Origin: Polaribacter huanghezhanensis
GTDB lineage: Bacteria > Bacteroidota > Bacteroidia > Flavobacteriales > Flavobacteriaceae
Length of the DNA: 64,000 nucleotides
Direction: 5' to 3'
Assembly: GCF_030444335.1 (NCBI RefSeq)
Contig: NZ_CP128595.1
Location: 1,116,001 to 1,180,000 of the forward strand
The translations under genes were made by a program, and so were the position numbers. Position 1 is the first letter of the stretch; the number at the start of each line of letters is the position of its first letter. Positions 34,720 through 41,960 of the stretch are shown piece by piece. The notes beneath the pieces were generated by a model. That model was not told the DNA's origin and searched no databases. It saw only the letters and a list, made by a program, of their open reading frames with translations.

Positions 34720-34816
34720 TTTAAAAAAATTTAAAACGAATAAAAAGAGGTAATTATTCTTGTGATTAATAGTGAATAATTAATTTAGAACTTTCTAAAA
34801 ACATAGTTTTTAAATG

Positions 34817-34872
34817 TCTCCTCGAGCGGAGTCGAGAGGTAATTAGGTTCTCGACTCCGCTCGAACTGACAA
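34817..34872. repeat. Paired palindromic repeat in the riboswitch-receptor leader
   Basis: TCGAGCGGAGTCGAGA and its complement TCTCGACTCCGCTCGA lie 11 bp apart, and the right arm ends in CTGACA. The family recurs elsewhere in the window. It sits between the riboswitch aptamer and the receptor gene, where the expression platform would normally be. Confidence 0.85.
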
Positions 34873-35512: not shown

Positions 35513-35532
35513 CCCAACATAAAAATGTTGGG
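35513..35532 (+). promoter_or_regulatory. Leader hairpin without T run
   Basis: CCCAACAT-AAAA-ATGTTGGG is a perfect 8-bp stem with a 4-nt loop in the leader of the fusion gene. It is followed by AAAG, so it is not a normal terminator. Confidence 0.6.
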
Positions 35533-35541
35533 AAAGAACAA

Positions 35542-35573
35542 ATTCTCTCGCGAAGAATAGACAATGAATGTCA
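35542..35573 (+). promoter_or_regulatory. Leader element copy 1 (short form)
   Basis: ATTCTCTCGCGAAGAATAG is shared with the two precursor-gene leaders. Here it is followed by GACA-ATGAA-TGTC, so the second stem is kept with a different loop, but the third pairing of the full form is absent. It lies 42 bp before the ATG of the fusion gene. Confidence 0.7.
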
Positions 35574-35614
35574 TTTTTGTTCGCAGCAAAAATAGTAAAT
35601 TATACCTAAAATAA

Positions 35615-37201
35615 ATGGAAAAAGAATTAAAACAAATCATTGAATCTTTTCTTGGTTTTAATAAAATTATTTTTAACAAAGAAGAATTGCATTTGCAATT
35701 ATTAACCCATCCATATTTTCCAAGTATCAACGCCATAACTGATTTATTTGATCATTTTAAAATTGAAAATATTGCAGCAGAATTGCCTCAAGAAATTTCT
35801 ATAATTGCTGAATTACCAGATACTTTTTTGGCTCATATAAAAGAAGAAAATATTAAAAAAATTGTTTTAGTAGTAAAAAAAAACAATGATTTAAAATTAA
35901 TTTACAGTGCTAAAACAACGAAGAATTTATCACACAAAGAATTTGTTGGTTTGTGGACAGGCGTTGTTGTGGCGATAGAAAAAAATGAAAACGTTGTTAG
36001 AAATAATTCTAATAGTAAATCTATATTAAAACCACTGGCTCTTGGAGTTTTTGTTTTGGTAGTTGCTGGAGTTTTAATTATAAAGACTTTAAGTGTAGTT
36101 GGTTATGGTTATTTGTCGATTTCGATAATAGGTTTTTATATAAGTATATTGCTTGTGCAAAAAGAGTTAGGGTTGCACTCTAAAAGTTTAGATAGGTTTT
36201 GTGAAGCATCAGAAAATAATAGCTGTGATGATGTGCTAAACTCAAAAGGCGCAACAATTTTTGGTGTTTTTAAATTAAGTGATGTTGGTCTTGTCTATTT
36301 TTCAAGCATCATTCTATCAATATTTCTATTTAGTTTAACAAAATCAGAAACAAGTAATCAATTCTTTTATAATTTGAGTGTTTTGTCTTTGCTGTTTATT
36401 CCATATTCAATTTATTATCAATGGCGCGTAATAAAAAAATGGTGTCCATTATGTTTAATTGTTTTAGGAGTGTTGTTTATACAAGGATTAATAGTGTTGT
36501 TTTTTGCAAATATATCTTTCGCATTTAATAGTACAGAAATAATAGTATCTTTATTTAGTTTCTTGGCATTAAGTATTTTTTGGACTGAATTAAAAACAGG
36601 ATTTAAAAAGAAACAAGAGTTTAACGTTTTACAGTTAGAACATTATAAATTTAAGAGAAACTCTAGTTTGTTTATTACTGCTTTAAAATCTTCTGATAAA
36701 AAAGAAATGACCATTGCAGGAATTCATGAAATTGTTTTAGGAAATAAAAATGCAAAATTAAAGATTGTTTTGGTAACAAATCCTACATGTTTCTTTTGTA
36801 AAGAAGCACATCAAATTTTCCATGAGATTCTTAAAAACAGAAAAGAGGACATTCAATTAATGATACGGTTTAATGTCAACACTTCAAATCCAGAAACAAA
36901 TGTAGGATTGGAAATCTCAAATCAATTGTTAGAGATTTATGCCAATCAGAATGAAGAAAAAACACTAGAAGTATTAGATGAAATATATTCAGATACAGAA
37001 CCAGAAGTTTGGTTGCAAAAATGGAAATCTACAACATTTTTAAATTATGTTTCTGAATTAGAAAAAGCAAAAGAATGGTGTACAAATAATGCGGTTAACT
37101 TTACACCAGCAGTATTTATAAATGGGTATTTATTCCCAAAAGAATACAACAAAAAAGACATTTCTTTTTTTATTGATGACATCATAGAAGAAGAAATATA
37201 A
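35615..37201 (+). CDS. C39-like / VKOR / thioredoxin fusion, disulfide-forming protein of the peptide cassette
   Basis: This 528-residue membrane protein has three parts. Residues 1-125 resemble the C39 peptidase domain of bacteriocin exporters (HPYFPSINAITDLFDHF, LSHKEFVGLWTGVVVAIE) but lack the catalytic Cys and His. Residues 135-335 form a vitamin K epoxide reductase-like domain with several membrane helices, loop cysteines C196 and C204, and the CPLC motif at 277-280. Residues 355-528 form a DsbA-like thioredoxin domain with CFFC at 392-395 and a cis-proline in FTPAVFING. VKOR-thioredoxin fusions oxidise protein thiols using quinone. The neighbouring precursors have four cysteines each, which suggests that they are the substrates. 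The degenerate C39 domain may bind the leader. Confidence 0.88.
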   Translation: MEKELKQIIESFLGFNKIIFNKEELHLQLLTHPYFPSINAITDLFDHFKIENIAAELPQEISIIAELPDTFLAHIKEENIKKIVLVVKKNNDLKLIYSAKTTKNLSHKEFVGLWTGVVVAIEKNENVVRNNSNSKSILKPLALGVFVLVVAGVLIIKTLSVVGYGYLSISIIGFYISILLVQKELGLHSKSLDRFCEASENNSCDDVLNSKGATIFGVFKLSDVGLVYFSSIILSIFLFSLTKSETSNQFFYNLSVLSLLFIPYSIYYQWRVIKKWCPLCLIVLGVLFIQGLIVLFFANISFAFNSTEIIVSLFSFLALSIFWTELKTGFKKKQEFNVLQLEHYKFKRNSSLFITALKSSDKKEMTIAGIHEIVLGNKNAKLKIVLVTNPTCFFCKEAHQIFHEILKNRKEDIQLMIRFNVNTSNPETNVGLEISNQLLEIYANQNEEKTLEVLDEIYSDTEPEVWLQKWKSTTFLNYVSELEKAKEWCTNNAVNFTPAVFINGYLFPKEYNKKDISFFIDDIIEEEI

Positions 37202-37202
37202 T

Positions 37203-37254
37203 ATTCTCTCGCGAGGAATAGACATAAACCTTGAGTGTCTTAAAATGATCAAGG
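37203..37254 (+). promoter_or_regulatory. Leader element copy 2 (full form, possible pseudoknot) ahead of precursor 1
   Basis: The element starts 1 bp after the stop of the fusion gene. Hairpin 1 is ATTCT (37203-37207) with GGAAT (37215-37219), one pair being U-G. Stem S1 is AGACA (37220-37224) with TGTCT (37236-37240). CCTTGA in the S1 loop (37229-37234) can pair with TCAAGG (37249-37254), giving an H-type pseudoknot with connecting lengths of 4, 1 and 8 nt. The whole 83-nt leader differs from copy 3 at about ten positions. Confidence 0.65.
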
Positions 37255-37284
37255 CTATAAATAAACAGTTAAAATTTTTTAATT

Positions 37285-37476
37285 ATGAAAAAACAAATTT
37301 TAAATTTAGGAAAAAGCTTAAGTAAAGCAGAGCAAAAATCAATTAATGGTGGCGGTTTTATTACAAAGTGTACTGAAGTAGGAGCGTTTTGTGATTGGAT
37401 AAGTGGATCTGGCTATGGTACGGGTACTTGTCAGTATAATAGTAGTACAAACGAGCTCATGTGCGAACCAAATTAA
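37285..37476 (+). CDS. Double-glycine leader precursor peptide 1 (four-cysteine core)
   Basis: This 63-residue precursor has a leader of the Bacteroidota GG type: MKKQILNLGKSLSKAEQKSI followed by NGG at residues 21-23, the cleavage site for C39 peptidases. The core of 40 residues contains four cysteines (in TKCTEVGAFCDW, GTCQY and LMCEPN), Gly/Ser-rich spacers and no strong hydrophobic stretch. Two disulfides are possible. It lies between the VKOR-thioredoxin and transporter genes and is followed by its own terminator. The activity (antimicrobial, signal or toxin) is unknown; no immunity gene is evident. Confidence 0.88.
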   Translation: MKKQILNLGKSLSKAEQKSINGGGFITKCTEVGAFCDWISGSGYGTGTCQYNSSTNELMCEPN

Positions 37477-37528
37477 CTTTTTTATGATTGATTCTATTGT
37501 TTATGAAAGAGACCAATTATAAAAATGA

Positions 37529-37564
37529 ACAGAACATAGTAAGATTACTATGTTCTGTTTTTTT
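37529..37564 (+). terminator. Terminator after precursor 1
   Basis: ACAGAACATAGTAA and its complement TTACTATGTTCTGT form a 14-bp perfect inverted repeat followed by a run of T. The precursor can therefore be made in excess of the transporter, which is expressed from read-through or another promoter in 37565-37677. Confidence 0.9.
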
Positions 37565-37677
37565 AGCCAATCAAAATGTAACTGAATAAACTTTTGTGAC
37601 AAAATAGGGTATATAAGAAAAATAAAATATAGAAACACTTAGTTAGGCTTATAAACCAATGTAATTAAAATATAATT

Positions 37678-39864
37678 TTGAAAAAATTCCCTCATTACAA
37701 ACAAACCGAAGCCAAAGATTGTGGCCCTACGTGTATTAAAATGATTGCCAAATACTATGGTAAAATTATTAATACACAGCAGTTGCGCACGTTAAGTGAA
37801 ACCACTAGAGAGGGAAGTAGTTTAATGGGTTTAAGTGATGCCGTAGAATCTTTAGGGCTTAAATCTTTAGGTGTAAAACTCACTTATGAAAAATTACTAG
37901 AAGCTCCATTACCATGTATTGTTCATTGGAATAAAAACCACTTTGTAGTAGTTTATAAAATCAAGAAAAACACGGTTTATGTTTCTGACCCAGCACATGG
38001 ATTAATTACTTACACAAAACAAGAGTTTATAACGCGATGGATAGGAAATAACGCTACAGATACAACCGAAGAAGGAATTGTGTTGTTAGTTGAGCCAACG
38101 CCACTATTTTATCAATCAGAATATGATAAGGACGAGAAATTTGGATTCAGCTTTATTTTTAAATACCTATTTAAATATAAAAAATTTATTGTTCAACTTA
38201 TTATCGGCTTATTAGCAGGTAGTTTATTGCAATTAATTCTTCCTTTTTTAACACAAAGTATTGTTGATGTTGGTATAAAAAATCAAGATTTAAACTTTGT
38301 CTATTTAGTGCTTTTTGCTCAGTTATTTTTATTTGTAGGAAAAGCTTCTTTAGAGATTATAAGAAGTTGGATTTTATTGCATTTAAGTACACGAATAAAT
38401 ATTTCATTGATTTCAGATTTCTTTATCAAGCTAATGAAATTACCAATTTCATTTTTTGATGTTCGTATGACTGGCGATTTATTACAGCGAATAAATGACC
38501 ACAAACGAATAGAGAGGATTTTAACCACTTCTTCACTTACCATATTATTTTCTTTCTTTAATTTGATTGTCTTCAGTTTTGTTTTAGGCTATTATAGTTT
38601 ACAGATTTTAGGAGTTTTTGCAATAGGAAGTGTGCTGTATTTTGGTTGGGTGTTGTTTTTCTTTAAGAAACGAAAGGAACTAGATTATAAACGCTTTTCT
38701 CAAGTCAGTCAAGAGCAAAGTAAAGTGATTGAATTGATCAACGGAATGCAAGAAATAAAACTGCACAATGCAGAAAGAAGGATGCGTTGGAATTGGGAAT
38801 ATGTGCAAGCTCGGTTGTTTAAAATCGCCACCAAAAGTTTAGCATTAGAACAAACACAAAGCGTGGGTTCAAACTTTATCAATGAACTTAAAAATATGTT
38901 CATTACTATATTATCAGCCAAGTTAGTTATTGATGGAGAAATTACCTTGGGGATGATGATGGCAATCAGTTATATCGTTGGGCAATTAAACGGACCAATA
39001 ACTCAGCTAATCAACTTTATGAGAGAAGTACAAGACGCTAAAATATCTTTAGACCGGTTGGGTGAAATTCATAACAAAGAAGATGAAGAGAAACCAGGAG
39101 ATGAAAAAATAACCACGATTCCAGAAAATGCAGCGATCAATTTAAATAATATTTCTTTTAGATATGTTGGCGGACTTGAACCTGTTTTAAAAGACTTGAC
39201 TCTAGAAATACCAGCGAATAAAATTACTGCAATTGTTGGTGTAAGTGGAAGTGGAAAAACAACGTTGATGAAATTATTGTTGCGCTTTTATGAGATTGAT
39301 AAAGGAGAAATTATGGTCAATAAATTCAACTTGAAAAATATTTCTCAAAAAGTATGGAGAGCCAATTGTGGGGTTGTAATGCAAGAAGGATATATTTTTA
39401 ATGATACCATTGCTAAAAACATTGCAGTTGGAGAAGATTATGTAGATTCAAAAAAGCTAGCTCATGCAATTGATGTTGCTAATATTTCTGATTACATAGA
39501 AGGACTTCCTTTAGGATACAATACAAAAATTGGTAGTGAAGGTTCTGGTTTAAGCACAGGACAAAAACAAAGATTATTAATTGCAAGATCTGTATATAAA
39601 AACCCAAAATATTTGTTTTTTGATGAAGCAACGTCTGCTTTAGATGCTAATAACGAAAAAGTAATTATGGGAAAATTAAATACTTTTTTTGCGGATAAAA
39701 CAGCAGTAGTTATTGCACACAGATTAAGTACAGTAAAAAATGCACACCAAATAGTTGTATTAGATAAAGGAAGAATTGTTGAAACAGGAAACCATAAAGA
39801 ATTGATTGCCTTAAAAGGAAATTATTATCATTTGGTAAAGAACCAATTAGATTTAGGAAAATAA
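37678..39864 (+). CDS. C39-peptidase ABC exporter for GG-leader peptides
   Basis: This 728-residue protein both cleaves and exports GG-leader peptides. The C39 peptidase (1-140) has catalytic Cys15 in EAKDCGPTC, His in WNKNHFVVVY and Asp in VSDPAHG. Six membrane helices follow (about 160-440). The ATPase has Walker A VSGSGKTT near 521, signature LSTGQKQRL near 625 (LSGGQ variant) and Walker B YLFFDEATSALD near 645. The start is a TTG: an in-frame stop lies 12 bp upstream, and the next ATG is past the catalytic cysteine. It is one base before the HlyD gene, so they are probably coupled. Confidence 0.95.
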   Translation: MKKFPHYKQTEAKDCGPTCIKMIAKYYGKIINTQQLRTLSETTREGSSLMGLSDAVESLGLKSLGVKLTYEKLLEAPLPCIVHWNKNHFVVVYKIKKNTVYVSDPAHGLITYTKQEFITRWIGNNATDTTEEGIVLLVEPTPLFYQSEYDKDEKFGFSFIFKYLFKYKKFIVQLIIGLLAGSLLQLILPFLTQSIVDVGIKNQDLNFVYLVLFAQLFLFVGKASLEIIRSWILLHLSTRINISLISDFFIKLMKLPISFFDVRMTGDLLQRINDHKRIERILTTSSLTILFSFFNLIVFSFVLGYYSLQILGVFAIGSVLYFGWVLFFFKKRKELDYKRFSQVSQEQSKVIELINGMQEIKLHNAERRMRWNWEYVQARLFKIATKSLALEQTQSVGSNFINELKNMFITILSAKLVIDGEITLGMMMAISYIVGQLNGPITQLINFMREVQDAKISLDRLGEIHNKEDEEKPGDEKITTIPENAAINLNNISFRYVGGLEPVLKDLTLEIPANKITAIVGVSGSGKTTLMKLLLRFYEIDKGEIMVNKFNLKNISQKVWRANCGVVMQEGYIFNDTIAKNIAVGEDYVDSKKLAHAIDVANISDYIEGLPLGYNTKIGSEGSGLSTGQKQRLLIARSVYKNPKYLFFDEATSALDANNEKVIMGKLNTFFADKTAVVIAHRLSTVKNAHQIVVLDKGRIVETGNHKELIALKGNYYHLVKNQLDLGK

Positions 39865-39865
39865 A

Positions 39866-41155
39866 ATGCCAGAAAATAATCAAGATATAGAAGTACGTAG
39901 TGAAGAAGTACAAGAGATTTTAACTCAAGTGCCCAATTGGATGATACGTTGGGGTAATACGTTGTTTTTTTTATTGATTGTAATGGTTTTATTTATTTCT
40001 TGGTTTGTAAAATATCCAGATGTAATTTCTACACAGGTTATGATTACAACTACCATTCCACCAGAAAAAATTTATGCAAAAACAAGTGGGCAAATTGAAG
40101 TTTTATTAAAGAATGATGGAGATAAAATAGAAAAGAATGAAACCATTGCAATTATAGAGAATAGTGCTAATTATAAAGATGTTTTTTTATTAAAAAGTAT
40201 TTTAGATACTTTATCAATTAATACAAATAATTTTTCGTTTCCAATAAACAGTATTCCATATTTAGTGTTGGGTGATATTACAACTAGCTATGCAACTTTC
40301 GAAAATAATTATTCAGAGTATTATTTAAATAATAAATTAAATCCTTATAAGAATCAATCTTTTGCAAATCAATTTTCATTAGTTGAAGCGAAAGGCAGGT
40401 TTCAGGTTTTAAAATCACAAAAAGAATTAAATTTAAGAGAGTTACAATTTAAACAGAAAGATTTAGCTAGACAAAAACAACTGTTTGAAAAAGGAGTGAT
40501 TTCTGCAAAAGATTATGAACAGAAACAAATTGAAATTTTACAAGCGGAGAAATCCTATAAAAGTTTAGAATCTTCAATTTCACAAACCAGAGAGTTGATT
40601 AATAATTCTCAGAAAGATTTAAAGAGTACATCTATAGAAAAAACATTGAACGATACTCGATTGCTAAAAAAAACAATACAATCTTATTATCAGCTAAAAA
40701 AATCAATTAAAGATTGGGAAAAACAATTTGTATTAAAATCATCTATAAAAGGAAAAGTAACTTTTTTATCATTTTGGAGTGAAAATCAAACAGTACAAAC
40801 AGGGAATTTAGTTTTTACAATTATCCCAATTAAAAATTCAAGTTATGTTGGTAAGATAAATGCACCAGCAGCAAATTCAGGAAAAATAAAGAAAGGACAA
40901 AGAGTACAGATTAAATTAGCAAACTTCCCTTCAGATGAATTTGGAGAAATTAATGGTCGTGTTAAAACTATTTCTATAGTTCCTGATGAAAAAGGCAATT
41001 ATTTAATAGATGTAGCTTTGCCAAAAAAATTAATAACAACCTATGGTAGAACAATAGAATTTAAACAAGAAATGAAAGGAACAGCAGAAATAGTTACAGA
41101 AGATTTACGATTGATAGAGCGGTTCTTTTATCAACTAAAAAATATATTGAAATAA
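39866..41155 (+). CDS. HlyD-family periplasmic adaptor of the peptide exporter
   Basis: The 429-residue adaptor links the ABC exporter to an outer-membrane channel. It has a membrane anchor at about 32-52 (FFLLIVMVLFISWFVKY), a lipoyl-like half motif near 75 (IYAKTSGQIEVLLKNDGDKI), a coiled-coil hairpin at about 160-270 (RFQVLKSQKELNLRELQFKQ; AKDYEQKQIEILQAEKSYK) and a second half near 290 (LKSSIKGKVTFLSFW). An outer-membrane TolC partner is not encoded here and must come from elsewhere. It ends just before leader element copy 3. Confidence 0.93.
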   Translation: MPENNQDIEVRSEEVQEILTQVPNWMIRWGNTLFFLLIVMVLFISWFVKYPDVISTQVMITTTIPPEKIYAKTSGQIEVLLKNDGDKIEKNETIAIIENSANYKDVFLLKSILDTLSINTNNFSFPINSIPYLVLGDITTSYATFENNYSEYYLNNKLNPYKNQSFANQFSLVEAKGRFQVLKSQKELNLRELQFKQKDLARQKQLFEKGVISAKDYEQKQIEILQAEKSYKSLESSISQTRELINNSQKDLKSTSIEKTLNDTRLLKKTIQSYYQLKKSIKDWEKQFVLKSSIKGKVTFLSFWSENQTVQTGNLVFTIIPIKNSSYVGKINAPAANSGKIKKGQRVQIKLANFPSDEFGEINGRVKTISIVPDEKGNYLIDVALPKKLITTYGRTIEFKQEMKGTAEIVTEDLRLIERFFYQLKNILK

Positions 41156-41159
41156 AAAT

Positions 41160-41211
41160 ATTCTCTCGCGAAGAATAGACACAAACCTTGAGTGTCTTAA
41201 AACGATCAAGG
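41160..41211 (+). promoter_or_regulatory. Leader element copy 3 (full form, possible pseudoknot) ahead of precursor 2
   Basis: It begins 5 bp after the hlyD-like stop. Hairpin 1 is ATTCT/AGAAT (41160-41164, 41172-41176), S1 AGACA/TGTCT (41177-41181, 41193-41197), and S2 CCTTGA/TCAAGG (41186-41191, 41206-41211). The three differences from copy 2 within the element are one U-A to U-G change in hairpin 1 and two loop transitions, so every proposed stem is kept. Confidence 0.65.
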
Positions 41212-41241
41212 CTATATAATAAATATTTAAATTTTTTAATT

Positions 41242-41442
41242 ATGAAAAAACAAATTTTAAATTTAGGAAAAGCTTTAAGTAAATTAGAGCAGAAGAAAAT
41301 TAATGGTGGTGGTGGCCCTGGTTGCACTGCTGATGTACACTATTCTCAATGTAATGATGCAGATTCAGGAACTGTTTTTTACCCATATTATATTAATGGT
41401 GTTCCAACAGATTATGGTGATTGTTGTATATATCAAATATAA
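41242..41442 (+). CDS. Double-glycine leader precursor peptide 2 (four-cysteine core)
   Basis: The 66-residue precursor shares the leader of precursor 1 with only three changes in 24 residues (MKKQILNLGKALSKLEQKKI, then NGGG), and then diverges completely. The 43-residue core has cysteines in PGCTADVHYSQCND and DCCIYQI, four in all, with aromatic residues in the middle (VFYPYYING). The ATG at 41242 is chosen because it aligns with precursor 1; a longer frame from 41188 would translate the leader RNA element. It is the last gene of the cassette and is followed by a terminator. Confidence 0.88.
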   Translation: MKKQILNLGKALSKLEQKKINGGGGPGCTADVHYSQCNDADSGTVFYPYYINGVPTDYGDCCIYQI

Positions 41443-41451
41443 TTTTTTTAA

Positions 41452-41479
41452 GAAAGGAGAGGTAAAAATCTCCTTTTTT
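41452..41479 (+). terminator. Terminator of the peptide cassette
   Basis: AAAGGAGA/TCTCCTTT with a short loop is followed by T. It overlaps the last bases of the convergent arfB gene. Confidence 0.85.
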
Positions 41480-41888: not shown

Positions 41889-41960
41889 GTCTCCTTGAGC
41901 CTTTCGTCTACGCTCAAGACAAACTAAAGTTGAAAGGTCTCGACTGCGCTCGACCTGACA
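41889..41960. repeat. Palindromic repeat between arfB and the NadR-like gene
   Basis: The gap contains TGTCTCCTTGAGCCTTTCG and then TCTCGACTGCGCTCGACCTG with a terminal TGACA, members of the same family as at 34.8 and 44.2 kb. Confidence 0.75.

Follow-up and report, generated by a model that had tools for sequence, protein, structure and literature searches.

Small pseudoknots in bacterial mRNA leaders are familiar from riboswitches: SAM-II, preQ1 and glutamine-II are all small classes of such build, the glutamine-II (downstream-peptide) motif stands before short peptide genes, and the glutamine-II and SAM-II leaders belong to a different phylum from the one considered here. Structures that stabilize mRNAs at their 5' ends, and processing sites between cistrons, also occur in bacterial operons, those that we know of being single cases. 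Palindromic hairpin loops that form kissing-loop dimers occur in the HIV-1 DIS, the oskar 3' untranslated region and the guanidine-II hairpin, according to passages of one published account (PMC7357161). Here we describe a leader element from a 64,000-nucleotide (nt) stretch of the Polaribacter huanghezhanensis genome (NZ_CP128595.1, positions 1,116,001 to 1,180,000; hereafter the window), in which two full copies and one short copy precede genes of a cluster for peptide precursors and their export. Comparison across genomes indicates that the element is a conserved leader, predicted to fold into an RNA pseudoknot, that heads genes for small, predicted secreted, bacteriocin-like peptides, or runs of such genes, in many Flavobacteriaceae.

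As in the glutamine-II and SAM-II leaders, a small pseudoknot lies in a bacterial mRNA leader, but here no Rfam 15 family matches, no conserved expression platform was found in the consensus fold of 121 leaders (a weak test), and the pseudoknot is preceded by an additional hairpin whose loop is mostly palindromic. Insofar as the cited passages describe them, the kissing-loop dimers resemble this hairpin in that a short stem carries an apical loop with 6 self-complementary nt; here, however, the loop sits in bacterial peptide-gene leaders, its sequence varies between copies, and the dimer is hypothetical. The likeness to 5' stabilizers is that a stable structure marks the 5' boundary of a cistron whose product is presumably needed in larger amounts than those of its operon neighbors, and the difference is a covarying family placed before one gene class in many genera. 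The surrounding clusters recall bacteriocin-like precursors of the NF047798 type that occur with C39 exporters, sharing leader type, C39 exporter and HlyD protein, but differ in the adjoining VKOR-thioredoxin fusion gene and the pseudoknot leader.

The two full leaders occupy positions 37202..37284 and 41159..41241 on the forward (+) strand, as do all window features below unless stated, and score 82.5 and 79.5 bits with our first search model, R1. An earlier sequence-only reading of this DNA had described them as equally long, with about ten differing sites and only three differences in the first 54 nt. Counted from the start of the element up to the ATG, which lies at 37285 and 41242, respectively, both indeed measure 83 nt; 10 sites differ, and the three early differences fall at positions 14, 24 and 45. 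One (G/A at 37215) exchanges U-G for U-A in the first stem and another (T/C at 37246) lies in loop 3, both as that reading had placed them, but the third (T/C at 37225), which it had also assigned to a loop, is the sixth pair of stem S1; at this pair a 34-copy alignment has CG in 18 copies, UG in 9, UA in 2, other combinations in 4 and a gap in 1. The two leaders belong to a direct repeat of 157 nt (87% identical, spacing 3957), in which they make up the 5' portion. The core ATTCTCTCGCGA has three mismatch-free occurrences in the window, the 20-mer TCTCTCGCGANGAATAGACA has 3 sites in the whole 2.59-Mb one-contig genome at up to 3 mismatches, and R1 likewise finds three matches in this genome.

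The modeled element begins with P0, a hairpin of 5 base pairs (bp) with a 7-nt loop, and continues directly with S1, L1, S2 and L3. In the consensus, S1 comprises 6 bp (AGACAY/RUGUCU), L1 is AAA, S2 comprises 6 bp (CYKUGA/UCAMRG) with no spacer, and L3 is 8 nt long (UUAAAUGW); the crossing of S1 and S2 is predicted to yield a compact H-type pseudoknot. In copy 1, P0 spans 37203..37219 (arms 37203-37207/37215-37219; 7-nt loop CTCGCGA containing the palindrome UCGCGA) and the pseudoknot spans 37220..37254, with S1 at 37220-37225/37235-37240, L1 (AAA) at 37226-37228, S2 at 37229-37234/37249-37254 and L3 at 37241-37248. In copy 2, P0 spans 41160..41176 (arms 41160-41164/41172-41176; loop CTCGCGA) and the pseudoknot spans 41177..41211, with S1 at 41177-41182/41192-41197 and S2 at 41186-41191/41206-41211; covariation supports the pseudoknot in both copies.

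The covariation was measured in three alignments. Of 299 family genomes searched with a sequence pattern, 37 contained matches, many of them by chance; five matches were left out, and 17 loci that looked like chance matches on inspection by eye were discarded. The resulting alignment A3 has 34 rows, two of which come from the window; the other 32 represent all but one of 33 distinct candidates (the aberrant L011 was excluded, and the short copy is absent). In A3, 95.3% of 577 cells are paired, as compared to 36-49% when the partners are slid by 1-3 columns; two-sided changes occur in 12/17 pairs, the pseudoknot included, and none of 500 shuffles reaches any of five covariation measures. Alignment A5 holds 129 of 139 distinct matches, with 92.2% of cells paired (35-54% slid) and two-sided changes in 16/17 pairs. 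Its percentages, among them 97.7% for S1 and 97.0% for S2, are inflated because rows were kept by a descriptor that demands S1 and S2 pairing (at most one failure each) together with a score cut-off; A3 is the fairer test because its rows were found by their 5' part. Alignment A6 (63 rows, including five copies from genus g128, probably Flavobacterium) has 94.2% of cells paired (29-51% slid) and 15/17 pairs with two-sided changes. Such changes affect 4/6 pairs of S1, and 5/6 (A3) or 6/6 (A6) pairs of S2, and in g128 the sequence of S2 is replaced wholesale with pairing kept (e.g. CUUCAA/UUGAAG). Two crossing helices with compensatory changes thus identify the element, on comparative grounds, as an H-type pseudoknot RNA, the fold that had been proposed for the two full copies. 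The sequence-only reading had named as refuting findings a lack of covariation in homologues, or conservation limited to a DNA palindrome (CTCGCGAG); covariation was found in P0, S1 and S2, and that of S1 and S2 goes beyond any palindrome.

Folding the three window leaders singly gave no significant stability (z -0.41, -1.50 and -1.02; pseudoknots not modeled), so homologues were needed to reveal a structure that single-leader folds would not show. RNAalifold returned only S1 from 121 leaders, because nested folding cannot hold S1 and S2 together. That no known riboswitch class could be recognized agrees with our Rfam 15 scans: at the gathering threshold the window contains only a tRNA and Flavo-1, both elsewhere, and at E<=5 neither of two scans, of 7 and 8 loci, placed anything at the position of the element on its strand. 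SAM-II, glutamine-II, guanidine-II, preQ1 and the other Rfam 15 families gave no match to it.

The element is tied to one kind of gene. Among 143 distinct R1 matches (of 146; three in L045 were dropped as the same places as L126), 131 precede a double-glycine-type peptide gene, defined as an ATG-initiated open reading frame (ORF) of <130 amino acids (aa) within 120 nt that carries G[GSAYKDE] at residues 13-36. Most of these ORFs begin 19-25 nt past the model end, and the loose criterion is satisfied at 300/2800 random places (11%) in the same loci. A pattern scan of named genomes placed 88/91 elements before such peptides (random places, 164/2800), and loci found with a second model, R2, did so in 41/45 cases (46 inspected; L197 was excluded, its orientation not being assigned). 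The named-genome scan, the set of 139 distinct matches, the upstream position profile and the head-of-run counts (below) leave out places that lie close to the end of a locus or repeat a sequence. The nearest leader family is NF047798 ('bacteriocin-like protein', NCBIfam), for which 1/10 scanned precursors exceeds the cut-off. The 12 matches that fail the peptide criterion comprise six broken-looking precursors, the short copy of the window, one precursor with GQ, and a rest of other ORFs, unclear cases and weak matches. The broken precursors behind elements (frameshifted, start-less or other) lie at L040:5421 (-), L089:10694 (-), L100:8265 (-), L110:6058 (-), L121:3251 and L140:10675 (-), and suggest that precursors turn over fast. 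An element-like match (L116:2496-2555) stands before a lipoprotein-like ORF of 175 aa, with no double-glycine peptide.

In its distribution the element is common but patchy, and judging from these scans it belongs mainly to the Flavobacteriaceae. With R1, which was built without S2 pairing, 49/397 sampled family genomes from 41/237 genera contain it at E<=0.001, with at most 13 candidates scored per genome (3 genomes reached 13). With covariation in all three helices, this spread over genera and a place mostly before one gene kind, the candidate structured RNA of the sequence-only reading stands. Over the phylum, R1 matched 9/395 genomes; the matches L144 and L149 were not counted as elements, as they have no peptide ORF as oriented. 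R2 matched 23/150 genomes of g128 and 18/346 genomes of the order, three of them outside the family: L203 and L206 (family f2) lie ahead of double-glycine peptides, and L195 (G975, family f60) is an element-like match before a 114-aa ORF of another kind. An exact pattern run over 84,980 named species genomes, which overlap the family sample (e.g. G131, G320) and are not fully independent of it, returned 81 stretches from Tenacibaculum, Winogradskyella, Bizionia, Aquimarina, Dokdonia, Polaribacter, Lutibacter and others, as well as from two Roseivirga metagenome-assembled genomes (MAGs). In the two MAGs (L260 and L277) the element and double-glycine peptides lie directly behind apparent ABC and HlyD gene ends. 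By their record names these copies are outside the Flavobacteriales, and transfer or MAG contamination is possible.

The short copy (35541..35614; 41.3 bits with R1) lies in the leader of the fusion gene in the window. All copies had been said to form the first two stems. This holds for the short copy as well, whose first hairpin (35542-35546/35554-35558) carries the loop CTCGCGA, but its second stem is only the 4-bp GACA/UGUC (35560-35563/35569-35572), and it has no S2. Among 27 ORFs of 495-550 aa that stand immediately before an element, not all of which are fusion genes judging by their N-termini, only that of the window carries the core in its own leader; the short copy is therefore not a family feature, and by its sequence it is probably a decayed or rearranged copy of the element.

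The placement of elements within operons bears on their function. Among the 122 element-bearing precursors, 97 do not come immediately after another precursor, but 54 of the 66 that lack an element do (median gap 25.5 nt; Fisher, 1.7e-16), counts that cover element-containing loci only and rest on a regular expression admitting a few false ORFs. Array L047 has 22 tandem precursor ORFs and only five model matches, one each behind the fusion, ABC and HlyD genes and two within a run. The element thus tends to head runs of precursors, and a single element for each run is easier to reconcile with an effect on a stretch of mRNA than with control of an individual start codon. We tentatively favor, at a little under an even chance, a cis-acting leader that would serve as a 5' boundary, stabilizing the precursor segment of the mRNA and setting it off from the genes for the exporter and the disulfide enzyme. 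The element would be transcribed inside longer operon mRNAs, with the transcript of the upstream gene continuing, through a preceding hairpin (H0, below) or beyond the stop codon, as far as P0 and the pseudoknot. The pseudoknot would then block 5'-end-dependent decay or define a processed end, and the precursor segment would outlive the catalytic genes and give more precursor; the self-complementary P0 loop might in addition let two leaders pair.

S2 ends 25-31 nt before the AUG in 114/121 leaders (mode 28), and the S2-ATG stretch has a G+C content of 9%. At individual leader positions, A-3 reaches a frequency of 0.91, A-12 0.88, A-11 0.81 and A-13 0.64; in Flavobacterium johnsoniae, an A at -3, -6, -12 and -13 is a positive determinant of translation, according to the portion of PMC6847099 that treats them. 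The regular spacing and the strong conservation of A-3 and A-12 would suit a translation enhancer, in which the pseudoknot would lie against the initiating 30S subunit on its upstream edge, helping to position or recruit it at the first precursor. We regard this as improbable, as the 54 of 66 element-less precursors that are tandem do without the element. A sensing leader, namely an orphan riboswitch or RNA-binding-protein site that responds to a metabolite, peptide or regulator, seems to us rather unlikely. Its attractions are the compact H-type pseudoknot, the single dominant class of downstream gene and some unconstrained folds in which S2b and L3 positions pair with the ribosome-binding site (RBS; at most 23 counts per position among 121 leaders), and the good conservation of L1 and L3 keeps it in contention. 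Besides the missing Rfam match, it is opposed by the fact that element-less precursors within runs would escape translational control. A conserved RBS-sequestering switch was also looked for in the 121 leaders and not found: their consensus nested fold is S1 alone and leaves the RBS unpaired, and at its G+C content the spacer has too much A and U to hold a terminator. Single leaders do show weak pairing of the RBS, which shifts the balance slightly from the favored explanation towards the sensing leader. The possibility of an upstream ORF in L3 was judged by eye and dropped, its AUG often being CUG, UUG or ACG.

The sequences upstream of the element were inspected for transcription signals. 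The nearest upstream ORF (at least 60 aa) is on the same strand in 129/143 cases, and some end only a few bases away. The box TAnnTTTG, which the relevant part of PMC9723704 gives as the sigma-A consensus, is not enriched in six 50-nt windows upstream (3, 5, 5, 2, 1 and 0/143, with 3.1 expected), and an upstream position profile did not reveal a promoter at fixed distance. A hairpin of variable sequence, H0, ends 2-12 nt before the element in 31/143 cases (0.4 expected from shuffles), with an A-tract 5' in 28/31 and, by eye, GAAC in or across the spacer between H0 and the element in 24/31. H0 was rejected as a forward terminator and should not stop forward transcription, because a T-tract is found 3' in only 1/31; it reads as an intrinsic terminator on the opposite strand only, and may once have served the upstream gene as a bidirectional terminator. 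The H0 of the window (35513..35532; CCCAACAT/ATGTTGGG followed by AAAGAACA) lies immediately 5' of the short copy, with an A-tract 5' and no T-tract 3', and the terminator scan lists a minus-strand terminator-like site there. In L050 and L093, short stretches resembling the end of a fusion gene precede H0 by eye, and these sequences suggest decay of the fusion gene with retention of H0 and the element.

These data, together with the P0 loop, bear on a further explanation, that the element acts in transcription, either as an antitermination or anti-polarity signal or as a disguised internal DNA promoter or operator whose palindrome is bound by a dimeric protein. The loop is mostly a palindrome, and copies of the element are found repeatedly where two genes meet, in some cases after hairpins that lack a T-run. 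We nevertheless consider a transcriptional element very unlikely: double-stranded DNA does not need the S1/S2 pseudoknot covariation, repeated copies per operon would be redundant for antitermination, and an operator or promoter, expected to show a fixed sequence and a box at fixed distance, is contradicted by a palindrome that varies, unlike one protein operator, and by the absence of sigma-A box enrichment.

Several observations weigh against the boundary-stabilizer explanation that we favor. Of the element-bearing precursors, 25/122 are directly behind another precursor, so the arrangement is not strictly one element per run, and the head-of-run count has the scope and the false ORFs noted above. 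The narrow S2-AUG spacing might indicate that the element acts directly on how the first cistron is translated. The pattern of A residues is incomplete, as A-6 is not enriched (0.32). Nor does the RBS look plainly accessible: it has a mean predicted unpaired probability of 0.50, or 0.53 with the pseudoknot arms withheld, and falls below 0.5 in 56/121 and 46/121 leaders, respectively. L1 and L3 show stronger conservation than a simple barrier would call for, consistent with a specific binder. P0 is the weakest helix in A5 (outer pair 64%, other four 84%) and is absent or degraded in several copies. The 12/143 matches that fail the peptide criterion belong on the same side.

The palindrome in the P0 loop proved to be more than the sequence-only reading had claimed: across homologues the loop sequence changes, whereas its self-complementarity tends to stay. 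CGCG is present in 71/110 distinct P0 regions; 32 of the other 39 have a scored hairpin, and 16/32 of these contain a different 6-nt Watson-Crick palindrome, as compared to 4.3 in loop shuffles (0/5000 reach 16). A loop-only test gave 14 against 2.2 (0/5000), and 4-nt palindromes numbered 20 against 11.6 (6/5000). Eight distinct non-CGCG palindromes occur, namely UUGCAA (7), CUGCAG (2), UAGCUA (2), AUGCAU, UUAUAA, CUCGAG, UCAUGA and UAAUUA, the last in a degenerate hairpin, and g128 adds UGCGCA and UGGCCA (L170 and L180). Treated as alignment columns, the loop pairs are paired in 84.4% of cells (47-59% slid), but 213/500 shuffles reach one of the five measures; the separate loop test was made because this column test is weak and misaligns loops of other length. 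The apical loop thus appears to be self-complementary by evolutionary maintenance; the hairpin itself needs no palindromic center, and a loop that changes while remaining self-complementary is exactly what a kissing-loop homodimer would need.

From these loops one may propose that peptide mRNAs dimerize through a palindromic kissing loop mounted on the pseudoknot, controlling the life or use of the message, with leaders pairing in cis (tandem copies) or in trans (between transcripts). We consider this dimerization possible but on balance doubtful. Non-palindromic loops exist (UCGCAA in 5 copies, UCACGA, L205 and others), and the loop counts include related copies that are not independent; both points speak against a dimer. 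The computed energy of the bare hexamer is -7.9 kcal/mol for UCGCGA and -0.6 kcal/mol for UUAUAA, which would be very weak.

In the window, the small operon-like cluster consists of the fusion gene, precursor 1, an ABC exporter, a HlyD adaptor and precursor 2. The fusion gene (35615..37201) combines a VKOR domain, a thioredoxin domain and a C39-like N-terminus (21.1 bits, slightly under the Pfam cut-off of 22) and is predicted to act in disulfide formation; copy 1 of the leader begins right after its stop codon. Precursor 1 (37285..37476) is a 63-aa peptide with the double-glycine-type leader MKKQILNLGKSLSKAEQKSINGG and scores 14.0 bits against NF047798, under the cut-off of 23.5. It is followed by a terminator-like hairpin and T-run (37528..37564), of which the scan lists the hairpin for the minus strand alone; the T-run on the + strand is read from the sequence. 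The peptidase C39-containing ABC exporter (37678..39864, TTG start; PF03412, 127.1 bits) and the HlyD-type adaptor (39866..41155; PF13437, 44.7 bits) come next, and copy 2 begins 3 nt past the HlyD stop codon. Precursor 2 (41242..41442) is a 66-aa peptide with the double-glycine-type leader MKKQILNLGKALSKLEQKKINGG; 3' of it lies a short hairpin (GGAGA/TCTCC) with a T-run (41456..41479), read from the sequence and absent from the terminator scan list. With its C39 ABC exporter, HlyD protein and precursor leaders ending in GG, the cluster has the makeup of a double-glycine peptide export operon. Elsewhere in the window are a Flavo-1 RNA (RF01705; 46429-46604 (-), 49.1 bits), a known flavobacterial RNA of unknown function, and an inverted repeat (34815-34871) with 23-nt arms that are 87% complementary, a related sequence lying near 41938 by eye.

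The openly licensed PMC literature on the element, its clusters and novel structured RNAs does not name the element in the portions covered, although an earlier mention is possible; in the main texts of PMC8632094 and PMC11109978, the terms flavobacter and bacteroid occur 0 times. A covarying RNA family that matches no Rfam entry and is present in 41 of the 237 genera sampled offers a handle on the expression of bacteriocin-like peptides, and the element can serve as a genome-mining tag for such precursors. If it is true that the palindromic loop dimerizes, the leaders would provide an unusual example of like bacterial mRNAs that pair with one another.

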